Assembly: GCF_030063455.1 (NCBI RefSeq)
Contig: NZ_JASITB010000003.1
Location: forward strand, 186,001 to 250,000
Reading direction: 5' to 3'
Origin: Cryobacterium sp. PH31-O1
GTDB lineage: Bacteria > Actinomycetota > Actinomycetes > Actinomycetales > Microbacteriaceae
DNA: 64,000 nucleotides
Both the position numbers and the translations under genes were made by a program. Below are positions 6,513 to 45,085 of this stretch, in pieces; within the stretch, counting starts at the first letter, position 1; the number at the start of each line of letters is the position of its first letter. Under the pieces are notes generated by a model that did no database searches, was not told the DNA's origin, and saw only the letters and a program-made list of their open reading frames with translations.

Positions 6513-6945
6513 ATTGGGTCGTGAGCGTAGGCATCCGTTGTGGCCAGGAATTTTGTCACGCCGGATTGGTCATTATGGGCACTTTCACAGCTAAGTGAAA
6601 CGGATTCGACTTTGCCGCTCGGTAGGCTCGGATGCATAGTTCAATCCGAATAGTCCCTACGCTGTCGGGCTTCGAACGCTGAATACGCACCATGCACCGA
6701 CCGGGCCCGCATCCGCCCCAAGCACCTGTCAGAACGACACACTGCTGCAGAACACGCGGGATCACGACACCTGTCCGGCTCGATGAGGTCGACGAACCGA
6801 CCTCGGGCGACACCCACGCCTGCACGCGTGCGACAGCTGCATCCGCTTATTCGAACCGACCCCAATGGTTTGAGCAGGCACAGCATCCGCGCAGCACCGC
6901 GCACCCGCTGTGCATTCGCGACCCGACTCTCCGGAGGACTCCACC
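6513..6945. other. 433-base leader/intergenic region before first beta-helix gene
   Basis: No convincing gene is seen. A 13-base word, GGCACTTTCACAG, lies at 6578-6590 and recurs at 8602-8614 before the second beta-helix gene, at nearly the same distance from the start (368 and 389 bases). Three GCATCCG words also fall here. A GGAGGA ribosome-binding site at 6933-6938 ends the region. A promoter and a long 5' untranslated leader are likely, but no confident -10/-35 pair was identified. Confidence 0.4.
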
Positions 6946-39955: not shown

Positions 39956-40732
39956 CTACGAGGCGTCGGGGCTCACGCGCAGCCGATCGACCGCCTCGAC
40001 GCCGCGAATCTGCACGAGCACTTCCAGGATGCGATCAACGACGCCGACCGACAGCGCCGGGCAGACGATGCTGTACGGACCGAGCTCGTCGAGTCCGCCG
40101 GCGCGCACCCGAATGACCTCCCAGCCGACCTCGTTCAACGCCGCATCCTTCTCCCGATCACTAGCCTCCTTCAGCCCGCGGTGGGAGAGCCCGTCCCGCC
40201 CCGGATCGTCGTATTCAATGGCCACCATCAGGCCGGGAATGATGATGTCGGGCCAGACTTCGGGCTTGCCGAAGAATGTGCGGCTGATTTTGATCGCGTT
40301 CACCCGATGCGGCAAGCGGATGCGTTCGCCCAGCAGCACCCGCAGCCGCTGTTCGGTCTGCGAGGTGCCCAGCCGAAGGGCTGGTTTCATGAACGGCACT
40401 CCGCCCTCGAACCGAGCAGCCGGCGCCTGCGCGTTTTTGAAGCACTTCGGACAGCCGACGCCGGTCAGCACCTCGCGCACGCTCGCGGTGAAGCGCGAGT
40501 GCCCGCGCACGCAGATCCATTCAAACTCAGCACCGATCCGGGTCTCCTGGGCGAGCGCCGCCCGCTCGGCCGGCGCGACCTTCGCCAACAGCTGGCGGCG
40601 GTCGCGCTTGGTTTCGACCAGCAGCATGCAGAGCGGGCAGGGTCGCTGCAGGGTGATGCGCGCCGTGTCGAGCGACGCGCCGTGCCCGCAGCGAAACCGG
40701 ATGCTCGTGCCCGTCGCACTACCGTCAGCCAC
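39956..40732 (-). CDS. Zinc-ribbon protein with C-terminal PD-(D/E)XK-like (DUF559-type) domain
   Basis: A 258-residue protein. The first about 120 residues hold two Cys-rich units, each a Cys/His then a CxxC: RCGH with CPLC, and CVRGH with CPKC. These are zinc-ribbon or treble-clef repeats as in DUF4379-like proteins. From about residue 130 comes a restriction-endonuclease-like fold: VWPDIIIPGLMVAIEYDD (Asp, then Glu-x-Asp) and a following DREKDAALNEVGWEVIRVR, as in Vsr/DUF559 nucleases. GTG at 40732 is chosen because GGGGAGG lies five bases upstream. No methyltransferase or partner is adjacent. It may be a DNA-repair or defence nuclease; this is inference. Confidence 0.7.
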   Translation of the reverse strand: MADGSATGTSIRFRCGHGASLDTARITLQRPCPLCMLLVETKRDRRQLLAKVAPAERAALAQETRIGAEFEWICVRGHSRFTASVREVLTGVGCPKCFKNAQAPAARFEGGVPFMKPALRLGTSQTEQRLRVLLGERIRLPHRVNAIKISRTFFGKPEVWPDIIIPGLMVAIEYDDPGRDGLSHRGLKEASDREKDAALNEVGWEVIRVRAGGLDELGPYSIVCPALSVGVVDRILEVLVQIRGVEAVDRLRVSPDAS

Positions 40733-40959
40733 TGATACCTCCCCTGTTTTCTTCCACGCTAGACACCACCACCGACAGGCGCATCCGCTCAATCCTCCCG
40801 CCTACTATTTGAGGGCTGCCCCCGTCGCGCAGAGAGGGCGATCTGGCGGGCTCCACGCCCAGAGTCCTGCGCATTATGTACGGTCTCAAGGCGAGAGATT
40901 GCGCAATTCCACTCATTGACGCAGAATTTAGGGGTACCCGGTCAGAGAGGACCATCGTC

Positions 40960-42171
40960 ATGAGCATCGTCGTTGACAACACCCCCGTCGTGAGCACCGA
41001 AGCGGATGAGTTCTACACCGGCCCCACCGCCGATTTTTTCTCCTACCACGACCTGCTCACCCCCGAGGAGCAGCAGCTCGTGGCCGAAGCCCGCGCGGTG
41101 TTCGAGCGCGAGGTGCGCCCCGTCGTGGCCGAGCATTGGAACAACGAGACTTTTCCATTTGAGATCATCCCGGTGCTCACCGCCCTCAACCTCGTCGAGC
41201 TATGCGCTCGCGGCAACAATTTCCTGCTGCACGGATTCATGACCCTCGAACTCTCCCGAGTGGATGCCTCGATCTCGACCTTCGTCGGCGTGCACAGCGG
41301 CCTGTTCGCTGCGGCCATCGCCCAGCTCGGCACCGACGACCAGCGCGAACGCTACCTGGCCGACGCCATCTCCCTGCGCAAGATCGGTGCGTTCGCGCTC
41401 ACCGAACCCGAGCACGGCTCCGACGTCTCCCGCAACATGGAGACGACCGCCACCCGCACCGGCGACTCCTGGACCCTGAACGGCGTCAAGCGCTGGATCG
41501 GCAGCGGAACCTTCGCCGCCAACGTGCTGATCTGGGCGCGCGACACCGCAGACGACCAAATCAAGGGATTCATCGTCAGCTCAGCCCTGGCCGGGTTCAC
41601 GGCCGAAAAGATTGAGAACAAGATCGCCCTGCGCATCGTGCAGAACGCCACGATCACCCTCGAGAACGTCGTGGTCGCCGAACGCGACCGGCTGCCCGGA
41701 GCCACGAGCTTTCGCGACACCAACCGGCTGCTCACCAACTCCAGGGTCTGGGTGGGCTGGCAGACCGTCGGACTGCAATTCGCCGCCTACGATTGTGCCC
41801 TGCGCTACGCCCTCGAACGCCAACAATTCAACAAACCGATCGCGTCGTTTCAGCTGGTGCAGGAGAAACTCGTGCGCATGCTCGAGAACGCGACGACCTC
41901 GCTCGGCACGATGGTGCGCATCGCCCAGCTGCAGCAGGCGGGAACGCTGCGGCCCGAGCACGCGGCGATGGCCAAGGCCTCGTCAAGCGCCCGCATGCGG
42001 GAATCCGTGGCGCTGGGCCGTTCGGTGCTCGGCGGCAACGGTATCTCCACCGACTTTGGCATGGCCCGCATCTTCGCCGACGCCGAAGCGCTCTACACCT
42101 ACGAGGGCAGCTACGAGATCAACACCCTGGTGGTCGGCCGCGCGATCACCGGCATCTCCGCGTTCCAATAG
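40960..42171 (+). CDS. Acyl-CoA dehydrogenase (glutaryl-CoA dehydrogenase-like)
   Basis: A 403-residue flavoenzyme. It has ISTFVGVHSGLFAAAIAQLG, FALTEPEHGSDVSRNMETTA and LNGVKRWIGSGTFA (FAD region). The late ADAEALYTYEGSYEINTLVVG, with YEG, matches the glutaryl-CoA dehydrogenase-type catalytic Glu segment. It would oxidise glutaryl-CoA or another short-chain acyl-CoA and pass electrons to ETF. The ATG at 40960 has AGAGAGG nine bases upstream. The gene ends at a perfect 20-base-pair hairpin. No ETF or CoA-transferase partner is adjacent on this strand. Confidence 0.88.
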   Translation: MSIVVDNTPVVSTEADEFYTGPTADFFSYHDLLTPEEQQLVAEARAVFEREVRPVVAEHWNNETFPFEIIPVLTALNLVELCARGNNFLLHGFMTLELSRVDASISTFVGVHSGLFAAAIAQLGTDDQRERYLADAISLRKIGAFALTEPEHGSDVSRNMETTATRTGDSWTLNGVKRWIGSGTFAANVLIWARDTADDQIKGFIVSSALAGFTAEKIENKIALRIVQNATITLENVVVAERDRLPGATSFRDTNRLLTNSRVWVGWQTVGLQFAAYDCALRYALERQQFNKPIASFQLVQEKLVRMLENATTSLGTMVRIAQLQQAGTLRPEHAAMAKASSSARMRESVALGRSVLGGNGISTDFGMARIFADAEALYTYEGSYEINTLVVGRAITGISAFQ

Positions 42172-42200
42172 TGGCTCGGTGCCAGGCAGGGGCGTGAGAC

Positions 42201-42246
42201 AGCGGATGCTGCGGGTCGCCTCACGCGGCGACCCGCAGCATCCGCT
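42201..42246. terminator. Perfect 20-base-pair hairpin terminator
   Basis: Arms at 42201-42220 and 42227-42246 are fully complementary with loop TCACGC. They lie between the acyl-CoA dehydrogenase and a minus-strand pseudogene. Both arms contain the over-represented word AGCGGATGC/GCATCCGCT. Confidence 0.85.
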
Positions 42247-42257
42247 TGGGTAGTGCG

Positions 42258-42790
42258 TTAGTACTGGATGGCGACGCGGCCGTCGATAATGGTCAGGCCC
42301 TTGAGCACCATGTCGAAAATCGGCGCGGGGACGTCGCCGGCCGGGAGGCCGTTGAAGACGATGGTGCCGCCGCGGCAGGTCATGCCGATGGCCTGGCCGG
42401 GTGCACGGCGGTGTGGCCGAGTCCGCCGTCGCCGGACACGACAACCCACTGGCCGGCGTTGGCCTCGGTCATCTTCAAGCCCTTGTAGACGGTGACGCCG
42501 GCGCAGAGGTTGGGCGCGATGTCGACCGGGTCGGCGTCCTTGGGCAGCGGCACGGCGAACTTGGTGTCGACGATCATGTACTCGCCGAAGGACCCGTCGA
42601 CGCTGTAGCCGCCATTGATCTGCGCTTCGCAGAGAGTTTCCCAGCCGGTGCGGCAATACTGGCAGGTGCCGCAGGCGCTCCACAGCGAGGCGTTGCCCAC
42701 GCGGTCGCCCACCTTGATCTCGGTGACGCCTTCGCCGATGCCTTCGTGCCCGGGGATGAACGGCGGGGTCGGCGACGTCCACGGGGTATT
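42258..42790 (-). pseudogene. Zinc-dependent alcohol dehydrogenase remnant
   Basis: Pieces of an AdhP-type enzyme survive in two frames. One gives PTPPFIPGHEGIGEGV (zinc-binding GHE), then SACGTCQYCRTGWETLCE (structural zinc cysteines) and VVVSGDGGLGH, where the NAD-binding domain begins. Immediately afterwards the frame changes and reads GQAIGMTCRGGTIVFNGLPA and ends VAIQY. Most of the Rossmann domain, the true N terminus and the C terminus are missing. The truncated 5' side abuts the repeat element at 42831-42900. The gene is dead as it stands. Confidence 0.8.
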
Positions 42791-42830
42791 TGGGCTACAT
42801 CAATTTGGATGTGGGGTCAGTCTGAAGCTT

Positions 42831-42900
42831 CGTTCGCCGAGGTGTGAGACCTACCCCGAATTTGGCCGACAACGGTTGCAAACTCACACCTCGGGAACGA
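42831..42900. repeat. GAGGTGTGAG hairpin element, left copy
   Basis: Begins CGTTCGCCGAGGTGTGAG (42831-42848). A 34-base loop leads to CTCACACCTCGGGAACG (42883-42899), which pairs with it except for one bulge. The same opening 18 bases and the same 34-base loop length recur at 43790-43851 on the other side of the DUF559-type gene. Confidence 0.75.
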
Positions 42901-42926
42901 ATGAGGGCTGCCTGTGGATAACAAAT

Positions 42927-43784
42927 ATGCGCGATCCCGATTCGCTGCATGATCCCGGCATGTCCACATCTCAGGATCGTGCCACCTTGTCCTATCGCCG
43001 CCTGCGCGCTGACGAAACGCGGGCGGCATCCGTTATTGAGCTGGCGAAGGCCTATTCTGAGCGGATGCCCGCGGCTCACGCTTTCAGCCACACGACCGCG
43101 GGCGTCGTTCAGGGTATGTGGTTGCCTCATCGGCTCGAAACAGACCGGCACCTGCACGTCAGCGTGCCGGCCGGTACCCGGGCTCCGCAGATGCTGGGCA
43201 TCGTCGGGCATAAGCGCGACGTGCTCGACATCCGCCGGGTCGGGGACCTTCGCGTGACGTCGCCGCATCACACCTGGATCGATGTCGCCCCGATGCTCAG
43301 ACGAGTCGAACTCGTCGCGGCTGCGGATTTTCTCTGCGGGGGTCGAGATCCGATGCACACGCCTGACGAGTTGTGTGCGGTCACGGCGGAACTCACCGGA
43401 CGACGCGGATGCCGCGCCCTGCGGGAAGCCGCGATTCTCGCACGCGCCGCGGTCGATTCGCCGCAGGAGACCAGGACACGCCTGTTTATCCTGGATGACG
43501 GCATTCCAGAACCCGTCGCCAATTTTGTTATTCGGGACTCCGACGGCCATTTCGTGGCCCGCGTCGACCTGGCCTGGCCGCGCTTTCGGGTCTGCGTCGA
43601 GTATGAGGGCGACGGCCACCGCACAGACCGAAAGCAATTCCGTAAAGACATCACCCGACGCGAGCGGGTCGAAGACCAGAACTGGCGCATGGTGCGCATT
43701 ACCGACGACGACCTCACATACGGCGGGCAGGAGCTCCTACGCCGAGTGCGCGCTGCGTTGGCTGCCCGCGGCGCACGCTCGTAG
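42927..43784 (+). CDS. AbiEi-like/DUF559 domain protein (solitary PD-(D/E)XK-type)
   Basis: A protein of 285 residues from ATG 42927, or 274 from ATG 42960; neither has a clear ribosome-binding site. The N-terminal two thirds resemble the AbiEi-type antitoxin-like domains found in actinobacterial proteins of this kind (VVQGMWLPHRLETDRHLHVS). The C-terminal DUF559 domain has VDLAWPRFRVCVEYEGDGH, an acidic-x-Asp then Glu-x-Glu-type active site, followed by FRKDITRRERVEDQNWRMVR. This is the Vsr-like nuclease fold. The gene stands alone between two hairpin repeats in the same orientation, and next to a broken dehydrogenase. No cognate toxin or methylase is adjacent. Confidence 0.75.
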   Translation: MRDPDSLHDPGMSTSQDRATLSYRRLRADETRAASVIELAKAYSERMPAAHAFSHTTAGVVQGMWLPHRLETDRHLHVSVPAGTRAPQMLGIVGHKRDVLDIRRVGDLRVTSPHHTWIDVAPMLRRVELVAAADFLCGGRDPMHTPDELCAVTAELTGRRGCRALREAAILARAAVDSPQETRTRLFILDDGIPEPVANFVIRDSDGHFVARVDLAWPRFRVCVEYEGDGHRTDRKQFRKDITRRERVEDQNWRMVRITDDDLTYGGQELLRRVRAALAARGARS

Positions 43785-43789
43785 CCATC

Positions 43790-43851
43790 CGTTCGCCGAG
43801 GTGTGAGTCTGGCGCCATTTCGAGCAAATTTCGGGCTCAAACTCACACCTC
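43790..43851. repeat. GAGGTGTGAG hairpin element, right copy
   Basis: Starts with the identical CGTTCGCCGAGGTGTGAG (43790-43807), has a 34-base loop, and closes with CTCACACCTC at 43842-43851. The outer pairing is weaker than in the left copy. It starts five bases after the DUF559-type stop codon and could also serve as its terminator. Confidence 0.75.
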
Positions 43852-43867
43852 AACCGAGCGGATCCTG

Positions 43868-45085
43868 CTAGGCGCGCTCGAAGATGGCCGCCAGACCCTG
43901 GCCACCTCCGATGCACATGGTTTCGAGGAGGTAGCGGCCCTCGGTGCGCTGCAGGTGGCGGCTGGCGGTCGCGAGGATGCGGGCACCGGTGGCGCCGACC
44001 GGGTGGCCGAGGCTGATGCCGGAGCCGTTGACGTTGGTGCGGGCCCAGTCTTCGGGGGTGAAGTTCCACTCCCGGCTGACGGCGAGCACCTGCGCGGCGA
44101 ACGCCTCGTTGAGTTCAATGAGATCGATGTCGGCGAGGGTGAGCCCGGCACGCGCAAGCGCGAGCTTCGTAGCCGGCACCGGACCGAGGCCCATCCGTGA
44201 GGGCTCGACTCCCGCGCGGGCCCAGGATTTGAGGCGCACGATCGGGGTCAGACCGAGCTCGGCGGCACGTTCCGGGGTGGTGACGATGCAGGCGGCGGCC
44301 GCGTCGTTCTGACCGCTCGCGTTGCCCGCGGTGACGGTCGCGGCGGCATCCGCTTTGCCCATAATGGGCTTAAGGCTGGCGAGGGCTTCGAGGGAGGTCT
44401 CGCGGGGAGTCTCATCGACGGAAACCACGACGGCGCCCTTGCGACCGGGCACGGTGACCGGCACGATCTCGTCGAGAAAGCGGTCGTCGGCGACGGCGGC
44501 GAGGGCGCGGCGCTGGGACTCCACGGCGAGTTCGTCTTGTTCGACACGATCGATCCCGTAGTCGCGGCGCAGGTTCTCGGCGGTTTCGAGCATGCCTCCT
44601 GGCACCGGGTAGTGGCGTCCGCCGGCCGTTTCACGCCCGCGGCCGAGGGCGTCGCGCAGCAGCACACCGGTGGTTCCGGCGAGGCCCCAGCGGGAATCGA
44701 CCGTGTACAGCGGGGCCTGGCTCATCACGTCGACACCGCCGGCAATGAGCAGGTCGCTCACCCCGGTCTGAACCTGCATCGCCGCGTCGAGGATGGCCTG
44801 CAAGCCACTACCGCAGCGGCGATCGACCTGCACACCGCCGACCGTGACGGGCAACCCGGCGTTTAGTGCCGCGACCCGGGCGACCGGCGCGGCCTCCGCC
44901 GACGGGTAGGCCTGGCCGAAGATGACGTCGTCGACCAGTGCACCATCAAGACCAGTGCGTTCGATCAAAGCACGGATGACCGCGGCCGCGAGGTCGGCCG
45001 GCGCTACGGTCTTGAAGGCGCCACCGAACCGACCGATCGGGGTGCGCAGCGGTTCGCAAATGACGACCTCACGCAGCTCACTCAT
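43868..45085 (-). CDS. pcaF: Beta-ketoadipyl-CoA thiolase
   Basis: A 405-residue thiolase that splits 3-oxoadipyl-CoA into acetyl-CoA and succinyl-CoA, the last step of the beta-ketoadipate pathway. The acyl-binding Cys91 lies in [33 protein letters not shown] (His) and [10 protein letters not shown] (second Cys) are all in place. It is the final gene of the pca operon; its start overlaps the pcaJ stop by four bases. By sequence alone an acetyl-CoA acetyltransferase is possible, but context favours PcaF. The GAGGTGTGAG element lies just beyond its 3' end. Confidence 0.9.

Follow-up and report, generated by a model that had tools for sequence, protein, structure and literature searches.

The locus analyzed here raises the question of whether a solitary gene for a nuclease-fold protein is functionally linked to the two palindromic elements between which it lies. 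It resides in a 64,000-nt stretch of the genome of Cryobacterium sp. PH31-O1 (hereafter, the window), and the original prediction was that the gene and the hairpins form a small mobile or defense unit in which the protein may act on the repeats as RAYT proteins do on REPs. The gene (42927..43784, plus strand; ATG at 42927, stop codon at 43782-43784, alternative ATG at 42960) encodes a 285-aa protein. The left (upstream) element occupies positions 42836..42895, with arms at 42839-42848 and 42883-42892 separated by a 34-nt interior, and ends 34 nt ahead of the start codon. The right (downstream) element, at 43797..43852 with arms at 43798-43807 and 43842-43851, starts 13 nt past the stop codon, between the nuclease gene and the convergent thiolase gene; neither element is assigned to a strand. 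Both copies, at 42839-42892 and 43798-43851, are 54-nt imperfect palindromes of the form GAGGTGTGAG-N34-CTCACACCTC. Together with the CGTTCGCC that stands ahead of either copy, they indeed share the same 18 bases from 42831 and from 43790, as had been predicted. The interiors, in which a common 34-base loop had been perceived, are equal in length but differ in sequence. They match each other at 15 of the 34 positions in the direct versus 18 in the inverted arrangement, and the near-symmetric arms fit either direction, so that the common orientation originally perceived is no better supported than the opposite one. The right copy contains 16 pairs, which is below the 18-pair threshold of the counts given below, and the two copies were recognized as a pair by eye.

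These repeats are not a product of chance because the exact pattern GAGGTGTGAG/CTCACACCTC with a gap of 25-45 is found at four places in the 3.64-Mb genome, compared with none for the reversed-pattern control. When folded as the plus strand, both window copies are much more stable than shuffled sequence (z of -4.0 and -4.4). An Rfam search of positions 42000-45000 yielded two microRNA-family matches only, both far under the gathering scores, which rules out a known RNA element from this collection.

To the left of the gene lies a remnant of an alcohol dehydrogenase gene without its 5' part (approximate limits 42258..42782, minus strand), a neighbor outside the system that had been described as a truncated dehydrogenase abutting the left copy. 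The truncation is real (the Pfam ADH_N match lacks the first 56 profile positions), but the remnant ends at 42782 by ORF, or at 42740 by blastn against a relative, and the left copy lies about 60-100 nt beyond. The next gene on this side encodes an acyl-CoA dehydrogenase (40876..42171, plus strand) and, upstream of it, there is a gene whose product matches nuclease families very weakly. On the other side, the neighbor is the thiolase gene (43868..45085, minus strand). The acyl-CoA dehydrogenase gene adjoins the nuclease gene in all seven genomes, the window genome included, that encode a homolog with at least 69% identity, and thiolase is found on the far side in five of the seven; of the exceptions, L020 reaches the contig end first, and for L021 (also L050), thiolase is not matched in the adjoining 2 kb. 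We define the subfamily of the window protein by a listed match of at least 54% identity, with G032, where the match is in two pieces, counted as present and G035 (60% over residues 6-86) as absent. In the other 14 of the 21 genomes with this subfamily, the window neighbors were not seen beside the gene, indicating that the gene changed its place over longer times.

The sole candidate for an empty site with one copy is the corresponding locus of G013, which contains a single element and no gene. The alignment of this locus to the window (86% over 1331 nt) starts at 43747 and therefore takes in the last dozen codons of the gene, so that this site is a deletion derivative rather than a pre-insertion site; no true empty site for the gene was found among the loci compared. 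On plasmids and in phages, the protein is hardly ever encountered (4 of 72,556 and 1 of 50,697 records, respectively). Given that the nearest relatives keep the locus, that the G013 site is a deletion and that mobile replicons are nearly devoid of the protein, the gene has the appearance of a resident, a description also given of RAYTs (PMC8049555).

Neither for MTES_1575 (PF18741; 24.5 bits, cut-off 38.2) nor for DUF559 (14.5 bits, cut-off 20.6) does the window protein reach the cut-off of Pfam. At an E-value of 0.01 or better, 32 of the 34 aligned members match MTES_1575 and 25 match DUF559. The namesake of MTES_1575 is described as a giant HEPN-containing protein (PMC3710099). An AlphaFold2 model constructed from the 34 aligned homologs has a mean pLDDT of 86.8 and a pTM of 0.82. 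In this model, residues 178-283 resemble the catalytic domain of I-Bth0305I, an EDxHD homing endonuclease (3r3p, Z 12.3, 96 residues), and residues 176-282 resemble Vsr (1cw0, Z 10.1, 100 residues); Foldseek alone produced no match at an E-value of 0.001, with I-Bth0305I ranked first at 6e-3. Residues 25-173 of the model resemble the AbiEi antitoxin (Z 9.9). When the N-terminal part is modeled alone, its residues 34-173 superimpose on residues 56-195 of AbiEi (6y8q, Z 10.3), followed by nucleotidyltransferases with Z of 7.6 and lower. We take residues 56-195 of AbiEi to be mainly its C-terminal domain, and the structural match leaves the DNA-binding helices of AbiEi outside. No match indicative of a winged helix in the N-terminal domain was present among the matches listed; such a domain may still exist. 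Four residues, E181, D214, H231 and D241, do not vary among the 34 aligned proteins and constitute a putative EDxHD catalytic site, assigned from the alignment rather than by superposition. According to the model, then, the protein is a combination of an AbiEi-like domain with a nuclease domain of the Vsr/I-Bth0305I (EDxHD) fold, so that the AbiEi-like/Vsr-like protein originally proposed is borne out by the predicted fold, with Pfam scores that stay under the cut-offs.

Homologs of this protein are widespread. A search with the window protein yielded a match at an E-value of 0.001 or better in 54 of the 57 Cryobacterium genomes (the GTDB genus, with Glaciibacter superstes among them). The profile of the 34 homologs matches 114 of 149 genomes of the family, in 63 of 78 genera, with 1-16 homologs per matching genome, and 158 of 196 genomes of the class, in 72 of 82 genera. 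The gene is a member of a large chromosomal family of AbiEi-like proteins with an EDxHD/Vsr fold in Actinomycetia.

Inspection of the flanks of 30 loci with homologs from the genus revealed palindromes of the same plan with different arms (GAGCCGTGAG, GAACTGTGAG, GAGTTGCGGA and others). Because the arms vary with the protein while the plan stays, we employed a palindrome search that assumes no sequence: the span was set to 46-67 nt, with arms of 12 nt (one mismatch allowed), a minimum of 18 pairs and a distance of up to 450 nt from the gene. Under this rule, a palindrome is present at 25 of 29 Cryobacterium loci. At the family level, palindromes are located upstream at 18, downstream at 21 and on either side at 25 of 29 loci; L100, where the downstream flank is cut by the contig end, was entered as a miss, and three of these loci (L084, L085 and L091) are the already examined L076, L078 and L077, respectively. 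At the class level, the corresponding numbers are 20, 22 and 27 of 29; nine of these loci come from the family of the window, and a palindrome flanks 18 of the other 20. Hence copies of such elements flank the same protein family in relatives, which is what the original prediction had proposed to check. The control, 400 kb from 20 family-level genomes, 19 of which also supply the 29 family-level loci, contained 39 palindromes, and 4.3% of random 510-bp windows were positive. The two-sided expectation is 8.4%, with binomial probabilities of 2e-23 for the family and, against this control drawn from family-level genomes, 4e-27 for the class; flanking palindromes are about tenfold more frequent than in the control. 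At least one of the control hits, that of L128, belongs to a locally dispersed family, as it resembles the element of L088 in the same genome.

For a closer comparison of the elements, we used 83 genes, obtained from 88 loci by removal of L036 (split gene), L100 (contig end), L101 (internal stop) and the short loci L186 and L198. At the 18-pair threshold, 74 of these genes have a palindrome on at least one side, 40 on both sides and 9 on neither. The upstream copy is present for 56 genes and, in 46 cases, ends 150-250 nt ahead of the matched start; the downstream copy is present for 58 genes and, in 54 cases, begins at most 90 nt from where the match to the gene ends. The 114 flanking elements have a median arm extent of 24 nt and a median loop of 13 nt (with the span capped at 67) and are mostly 55-67 bp long. 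The second homolog in the window genome (L258) has no clear palindromes beside the gene. The left and right copies of the same gene share a mean identity of 0.85, compared with 0.53 between genes, and in 39 of the 40 pairs, the left-right identity exceeds the 95th percentile of the between-gene values. The best matches between left and right copies are in part direct and in part inverted over the 40 pairs, with many near ties, which rules out a uniformly direct or uniformly inverted arrangement.

The protein and the palindrome appear to diverge together. The identity of the elements climbs with that of the proteins above about 45% protein identity and stays at the background level below it, and for 74 genes, the similarities of proteins and elements are correlated with a Mantel r of 0.30 (0 of 5000 permutations). 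The correlation is also positive within Cryobacterium (r of 0.56) and in the class set (r of 0.40; 0 of 2000 permutations each), whereas the family-level set shows none (r of 0.08, 215 of 2000). Given that shared ancestry by itself would be enough to make the elements of close homologs in one locus alike, we attach greater weight to the match between the left and right copies and to the genome-specific dispersal of the elements.

This dispersal was traced with the pattern CGARNNGTGAG-N33-37-CTCACNNYTCG, which is found in 38 of the 57 genomes of the genus, in up to 66 copies (this maximum comes from the strict pattern), and is absent from the reversed control. All 21 genomes with the subfamily contain at least three copies, with a median of 10, compared with a median of zero in the 36 genomes without the subfamily (Mann-Whitney p of 1.3e-7 and Fisher p of 1.9e-5, both uncorrected for relatedness). 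Repeats without such genes, which in the original prediction would have spoken against a link, do occur to some extent: 17 of these 36 genomes hold copies, among them G073, which has 47 copies in the absence of a close homolog. We read such copies as orphans. Conversely, some genomes contain few copies despite the presence of the gene, including the window genome (5), G062 (3) and, by a separate strict pattern, G371 (1). Other homologs appear to have their own dispersed families. In another genus, the arm CGTCAGTAGATGCCCTT (at most two mismatches) is represented by 44 half-sites in G098 compared with 0-2 per genome in 30 others, and the G098 half-sites make up 19 full elements, of which 17 are distant from the gene; elements with TTGATCATGG number 1-52 per genome in 12 of 16 f36 family genomes, with none in 8 other genomes. 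The arm CGAGTGTGCACTTGTGG occurs 11 times in G148 compared with 0-3 times elsewhere, the latter being the reversed-control level. The Y1 transposase domain of RAYTs (PF01797) was detected in none of the 57 Cryobacterium genomes, compared with 5 of 14 control genomes, which rules out a RAYT as a hidden partner of the elements in this genus.

The dispersed copies are preferentially located between convergent genes. We collected 37 copies away from the genes: 13 with the exact GAGGTGTGAG (L003-L015, with L012 being the G013 site), 13 from chosen stretches of G098 and 11 from compared stretches of G007, G022 and G070. In the latter stretches, we disregarded 12 further copies situated at the genes or up to about 1.4 kb from them, the two copies bounding a two-gene segment in G070 and four palindromes that we did not regard as elements. 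The 37 copies are distributed among 21 convergent, 8 tandem and 3 divergent gaps, with 5 inside crudely called ORFs. Convergent gaps account for 26% of the gaps and 30% of the intergenic bases in comparable DNA, so that, with the 5 in-ORF copies set aside, 21 of 32 intergenic copies are an excess (p of 3e-5 by bases), on the crude gene calls that underlie this test.

Individual positions suggest how the palindromes come to occupy gene ends. The slot 3' of prsA, seen in 30 of the 57 genomes, mostly contains an ordinary GC-rich hairpin, and in four genomes, as judged by eye, it holds palindromes of three families: GAGGTGTGAG in G017 and G068, its own GAACTGTGAG type in G006 and a third family in G003. 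The prediction that a palindrome in such a slot recurs beside a homolog in the same genome held for G003, where the slot palindrome matches, with 1-2 mismatches, both flanks of one of the four homologs examined (L253, which itself matches the query over residues 38-145 only), and failed for G007, where the other palindrome found at the slot is beside none of the four homologs. Another slot contains an element in G070 and G022 and a different palindrome in G007. We read these cases as exchanges in which a gene-end hairpin gives way to a palindrome of the cognate family that the given genome maintains. In G070, a segment consisting of an element, two genes and another element occupies a position where G007 has none. 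At the few sites compared by eye, no target-site duplication of the kind left by MITEs of DDE transposons was evident, and no clean insertion with a duplication was found.

Taken together, most of the family members examined have a palindrome family of their own, typically with one copy upstream, one just past the stop codon and, in the tested genomes, others at gene ends. The association of a lone nuclease-fold protein with hairpins, as in RAYT and REP, is strongly supported by the class-wide flanking, the gene-specific sequences, the left-right match and the dispersed cognate copies, and we are highly confident that the protein and the palindrome are partners; in what manner the protein would act on the repeats is addressed by the following model. 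We consider it probable that the AbiEi-like protein with the EDxHD nuclease maintains its own palindrome family in trans, in a REP-like manner. The protein, probably as a dimer, would recognize the cognate palindrome as a symmetric pair across both arms. This mode of binding is proposed because the lengths known for two related proteins, I-Bth0305I and Rv2827c, fit the palindromes: I-Bth0305I is reported to bind as a dimer to a target of almost 60 bp (PMC3943268), and AbiEi-family antitoxins to recognize inverted repeats of 23 bp within the promoters of their own genes, with a spacing of 3 bp for AbiEi and 13 bp for Rv2827c, the latter spanning 59 bp overall (PMC7319586). Nuclease action followed by repair or replication might then occasionally copy the palindrome into other gene ends, where it could be tolerated as a two-way terminator-like hairpin, and the palindromes would outlast the loss of the gene as orphans. 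We propose the copying of the palindrome by the nuclease with moderate confidence.

The main and serious rival to maintenance in trans, although in our judgment an unlikely one, is that the protein is an autoregulator, with the palindromes as its operators and the scattered copies acting on transcription or chromosome organization, without any copying. The median arm of 24 nt and loop of 13 nt are close to the promoter inverted repeats that AbiEi-family antitoxins bind (PMC7319586), and 56 of the 83 genes have an upstream copy. A purely regulatory role does not, however, account for the downstream copy at 58 of the 83 genes or for the location of the distant copies, which mostly follow stop codons, with 21 of 37 between convergent genes. 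Furthermore, the part of AbiEi that is matched (56-195, taken as mainly the C-terminal domain) does not include the DNA-binding helices, and putative nuclease residues invariant in 34 proteins would be needless for a pure repressor.

Vsr-type nucleases and AbiEi both occur in defense contexts. The protein could accordingly be a nuclease that attacks DNA during invasion or replication stress, with the palindromes marking, titrating or protecting self, and the weak PADLOC matches to ZorE (E-value of 0.001) and AbiEi (E-value of 0.002), as well as the gene upstream of the acyl-CoA dehydrogenase gene, whose product has very weak matches to nuclease families, could be cited for such a role. We regard it as very unlikely, given that the immediate neighbors in the window are genes of acyl-CoA metabolism and that the protein is nearly missing from plasmids and phages; none of the observations demonstrates a defense role such as originally suggested. 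Equally unlikely, in our estimate, is the composite mobile cassette, in which the palindromes would be the ends of an element-gene-element unit that transposes as a whole. The layout itself, the 14 more distant subfamily genomes without the window neighbors beside the gene and the two-gene segment of G070 that is missing at the G007 site all resemble what such a cassette would produce. Against it stand the common neighbor in all seven nearest genomes, the one-copy site of G013, which retains the end of the gene, the mixed orientation of the pairs and the presence of up to 66 palindromes compared with one listed subfamily gene per genome in 21 genomes; the first two observations also leave the small mobile unit of the original prediction unsupported. 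The least likely explanation, that the hairpins are ordinary terminators that flank the gene by accident and are unrelated to the protein, would fit their location at gene 3' ends, their stable folds and the ordinary GC-rich hairpin in the prsA slot of most relatives, but not the tenfold excess over the control, the upstream copies at 56 of 83 genes, the genome- or group-specific sequences of the tested families and the resemblance of the left and right copies of a gene to each other rather than to those of other genes, with 39 of 40 pairs exceeding the between-gene 95th percentile.

The preferred reading, maintenance of the palindromes in trans by the AbiEi-like nuclease, combines features of several known systems. 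The protein shares with the EDxHD homing endonuclease I-Bth0305I the predicted catalytic fold (Z 12.3) and, if it binds its palindrome as proposed, a target length close to the 60 bp reported for the I-Bth0305I dimer (PMC3943268), and differs from it in being encoded by free-standing chromosomal genes with palindromes of their own and in having an AbiEi-like N-terminal domain. With the AbiE type IV toxin-antitoxin system, it shares the N-terminal fold (AbiEi 56-195), and the geometry of the palindromes resembles the paired 23-bp repeats described for Rv2827c (PMC7319586). Unlike AbiE, the window gene has no adjacent gene for an AbiEii nucleotidyltransferase toxin, its neighbors being the acyl-CoA dehydrogenase gene, the dehydrogenase remnant and the thiolase gene; a nuclease-fold domain is fused to the AbiEi-like domain, and the palindromes are also located downstream and scattered over the genome. 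Among the literature matches listed (preprints and most subscription journals being outside the scope of the search), DUF559, MTES_1575 or AbiEi-nuclease proteins are never linked with palindromic repeats.

The closest parallel is REP/RAYT (TnpA-REP; REP/REPIN). According to PMC2817692 and PMC8049555, RAYT transposases account for REP sequences; the RAYT is described as a tyrosine transposase bracketed in every case by two REPs in inverted orientation, with coevolution and a gene-repeat correlation (PMC2817692), and REPs are reported to occur chiefly in the gaps of convergent and unidirectional gene pairs (PMC3733652). Here, too, a chromosomal enzyme gene is located beside palindromes whose cognates are dispersed, the protein and the palindrome seem to diverge together, copies are found mostly in convergent or tandem gaps, and the copy number is higher where the genome keeps the gene (median of 10 vs. 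0). Flanking on both sides applies to 40 and flanking on at least one side to 74 of the 83 genes, and inversion of the left copy relative to the right is not consistent. The palindromes are about 60 bp long, compared with 20-40 for REPs (PMC3733652). REP/RAYT systems usually have more than 100 copies per genome, in contrast to at most 66 by the strict pattern here, and many genomes encode several homologs (1-16 per matching genome of the family). The enzyme, with its AbiEi-like domain and EDxHD/Vsr fold, is not a Y1 HuH transposase.

The system thus works like REP/RAYT with respect to coevolution, gene-repeat correlation and genomic position, yet is not one, as the enzyme and the inverted orientation do not agree. 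We count it as a new kind of system on the grounds that its enzyme has no relationship to the transposase by which REP/RAYT is defined, and it would be so to a lesser degree if the palindromes were operators. On balance, belief and doubt weigh about equally on the broader proposal that this is a second, independently evolved REP-like system across Actinomycetia, in which an EDxHD nuclease with an AbiEi-like domain would propagate its own ~60-bp palindromes in trans, with several parallel systems in many genomes, each with its own recognition sequence. If this is true, extragenic palindromes associated with an enzyme would have had more than one origin, and a role would be assigned to a protein family so far recognized chiefly by its DUF559/MTES_1575 label. 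The pairing, which may account for many actinobacterial gene-end hairpins, also provides a large natural set of protein-DNA pairs, one protein with one ~60-bp palindrome family, for studying how nuclease recognition changes, in an organization that parallels REP/RAYT with a different enzyme.

The minus-strand gene located upstream of the acyl-CoA dehydrogenase gene (window positions 39956-40792) encodes a second candidate nuclease-family protein, with very weak matches to DUF4379, DUF559 and MTES_1575 (E values of 0.003 to 0.11, none reaching 0.001). A 27-aa leftover of this protein is detectable in the compared genome G013 (locus L081, 6803-6883), and a GAGGTGTGAG element lies close by, at position 6904. 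An inverted repeat directly 3' of the acyl-CoA dehydrogenase gene (42201-42246), whose perfectly matching 20-bp arms enclose a loop of 6 nt, is likely to be an ordinary terminator.

In G070 (contig C45, locus L169, 9151-10267), two elements enclose a pair of ORFs; read by eye, the 158-aa product resembles a MarR regulator and the 146-aa one a DoxX membrane protein. The matching site of the related genome G007 contains only a different palindrome; this is possibly a cargo segment bounded by elements. Furthermore, a convergent slot that is occupied by the element in G070 and G022 harbors, in G007 (C1, about 3087960-3088160), a GGTCGAGCTTGTCGAGACC-type palindrome unlike the element, which may represent a separate family of repeats that might or might not be paired with a protein.

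The Cryobacterium genome G073 lacks a close homolog of the window's subfamily but carries 47 element copies; either the gene was lost, or a different protein recognises the same sequence. A homolog flanked on each side by similar palindromes comes from a MAG labelled Acidobacteria (L074), pointing to either misbinning or transfer out of actinobacteria.

Near the starts of contigs C6 and C7 of G002 (first 800 bases), the element is repeated at 213-215 nt spacing, which suggests a tandem array with the palindrome inside. At another locus (L250, G003 contig C59), a single homolog is accompanied by the TGAGGTGCGGA palindrome, three times in succession upstream and once downstream (459-764 and 1775-1837), a group similar to a BIME-like cluster.
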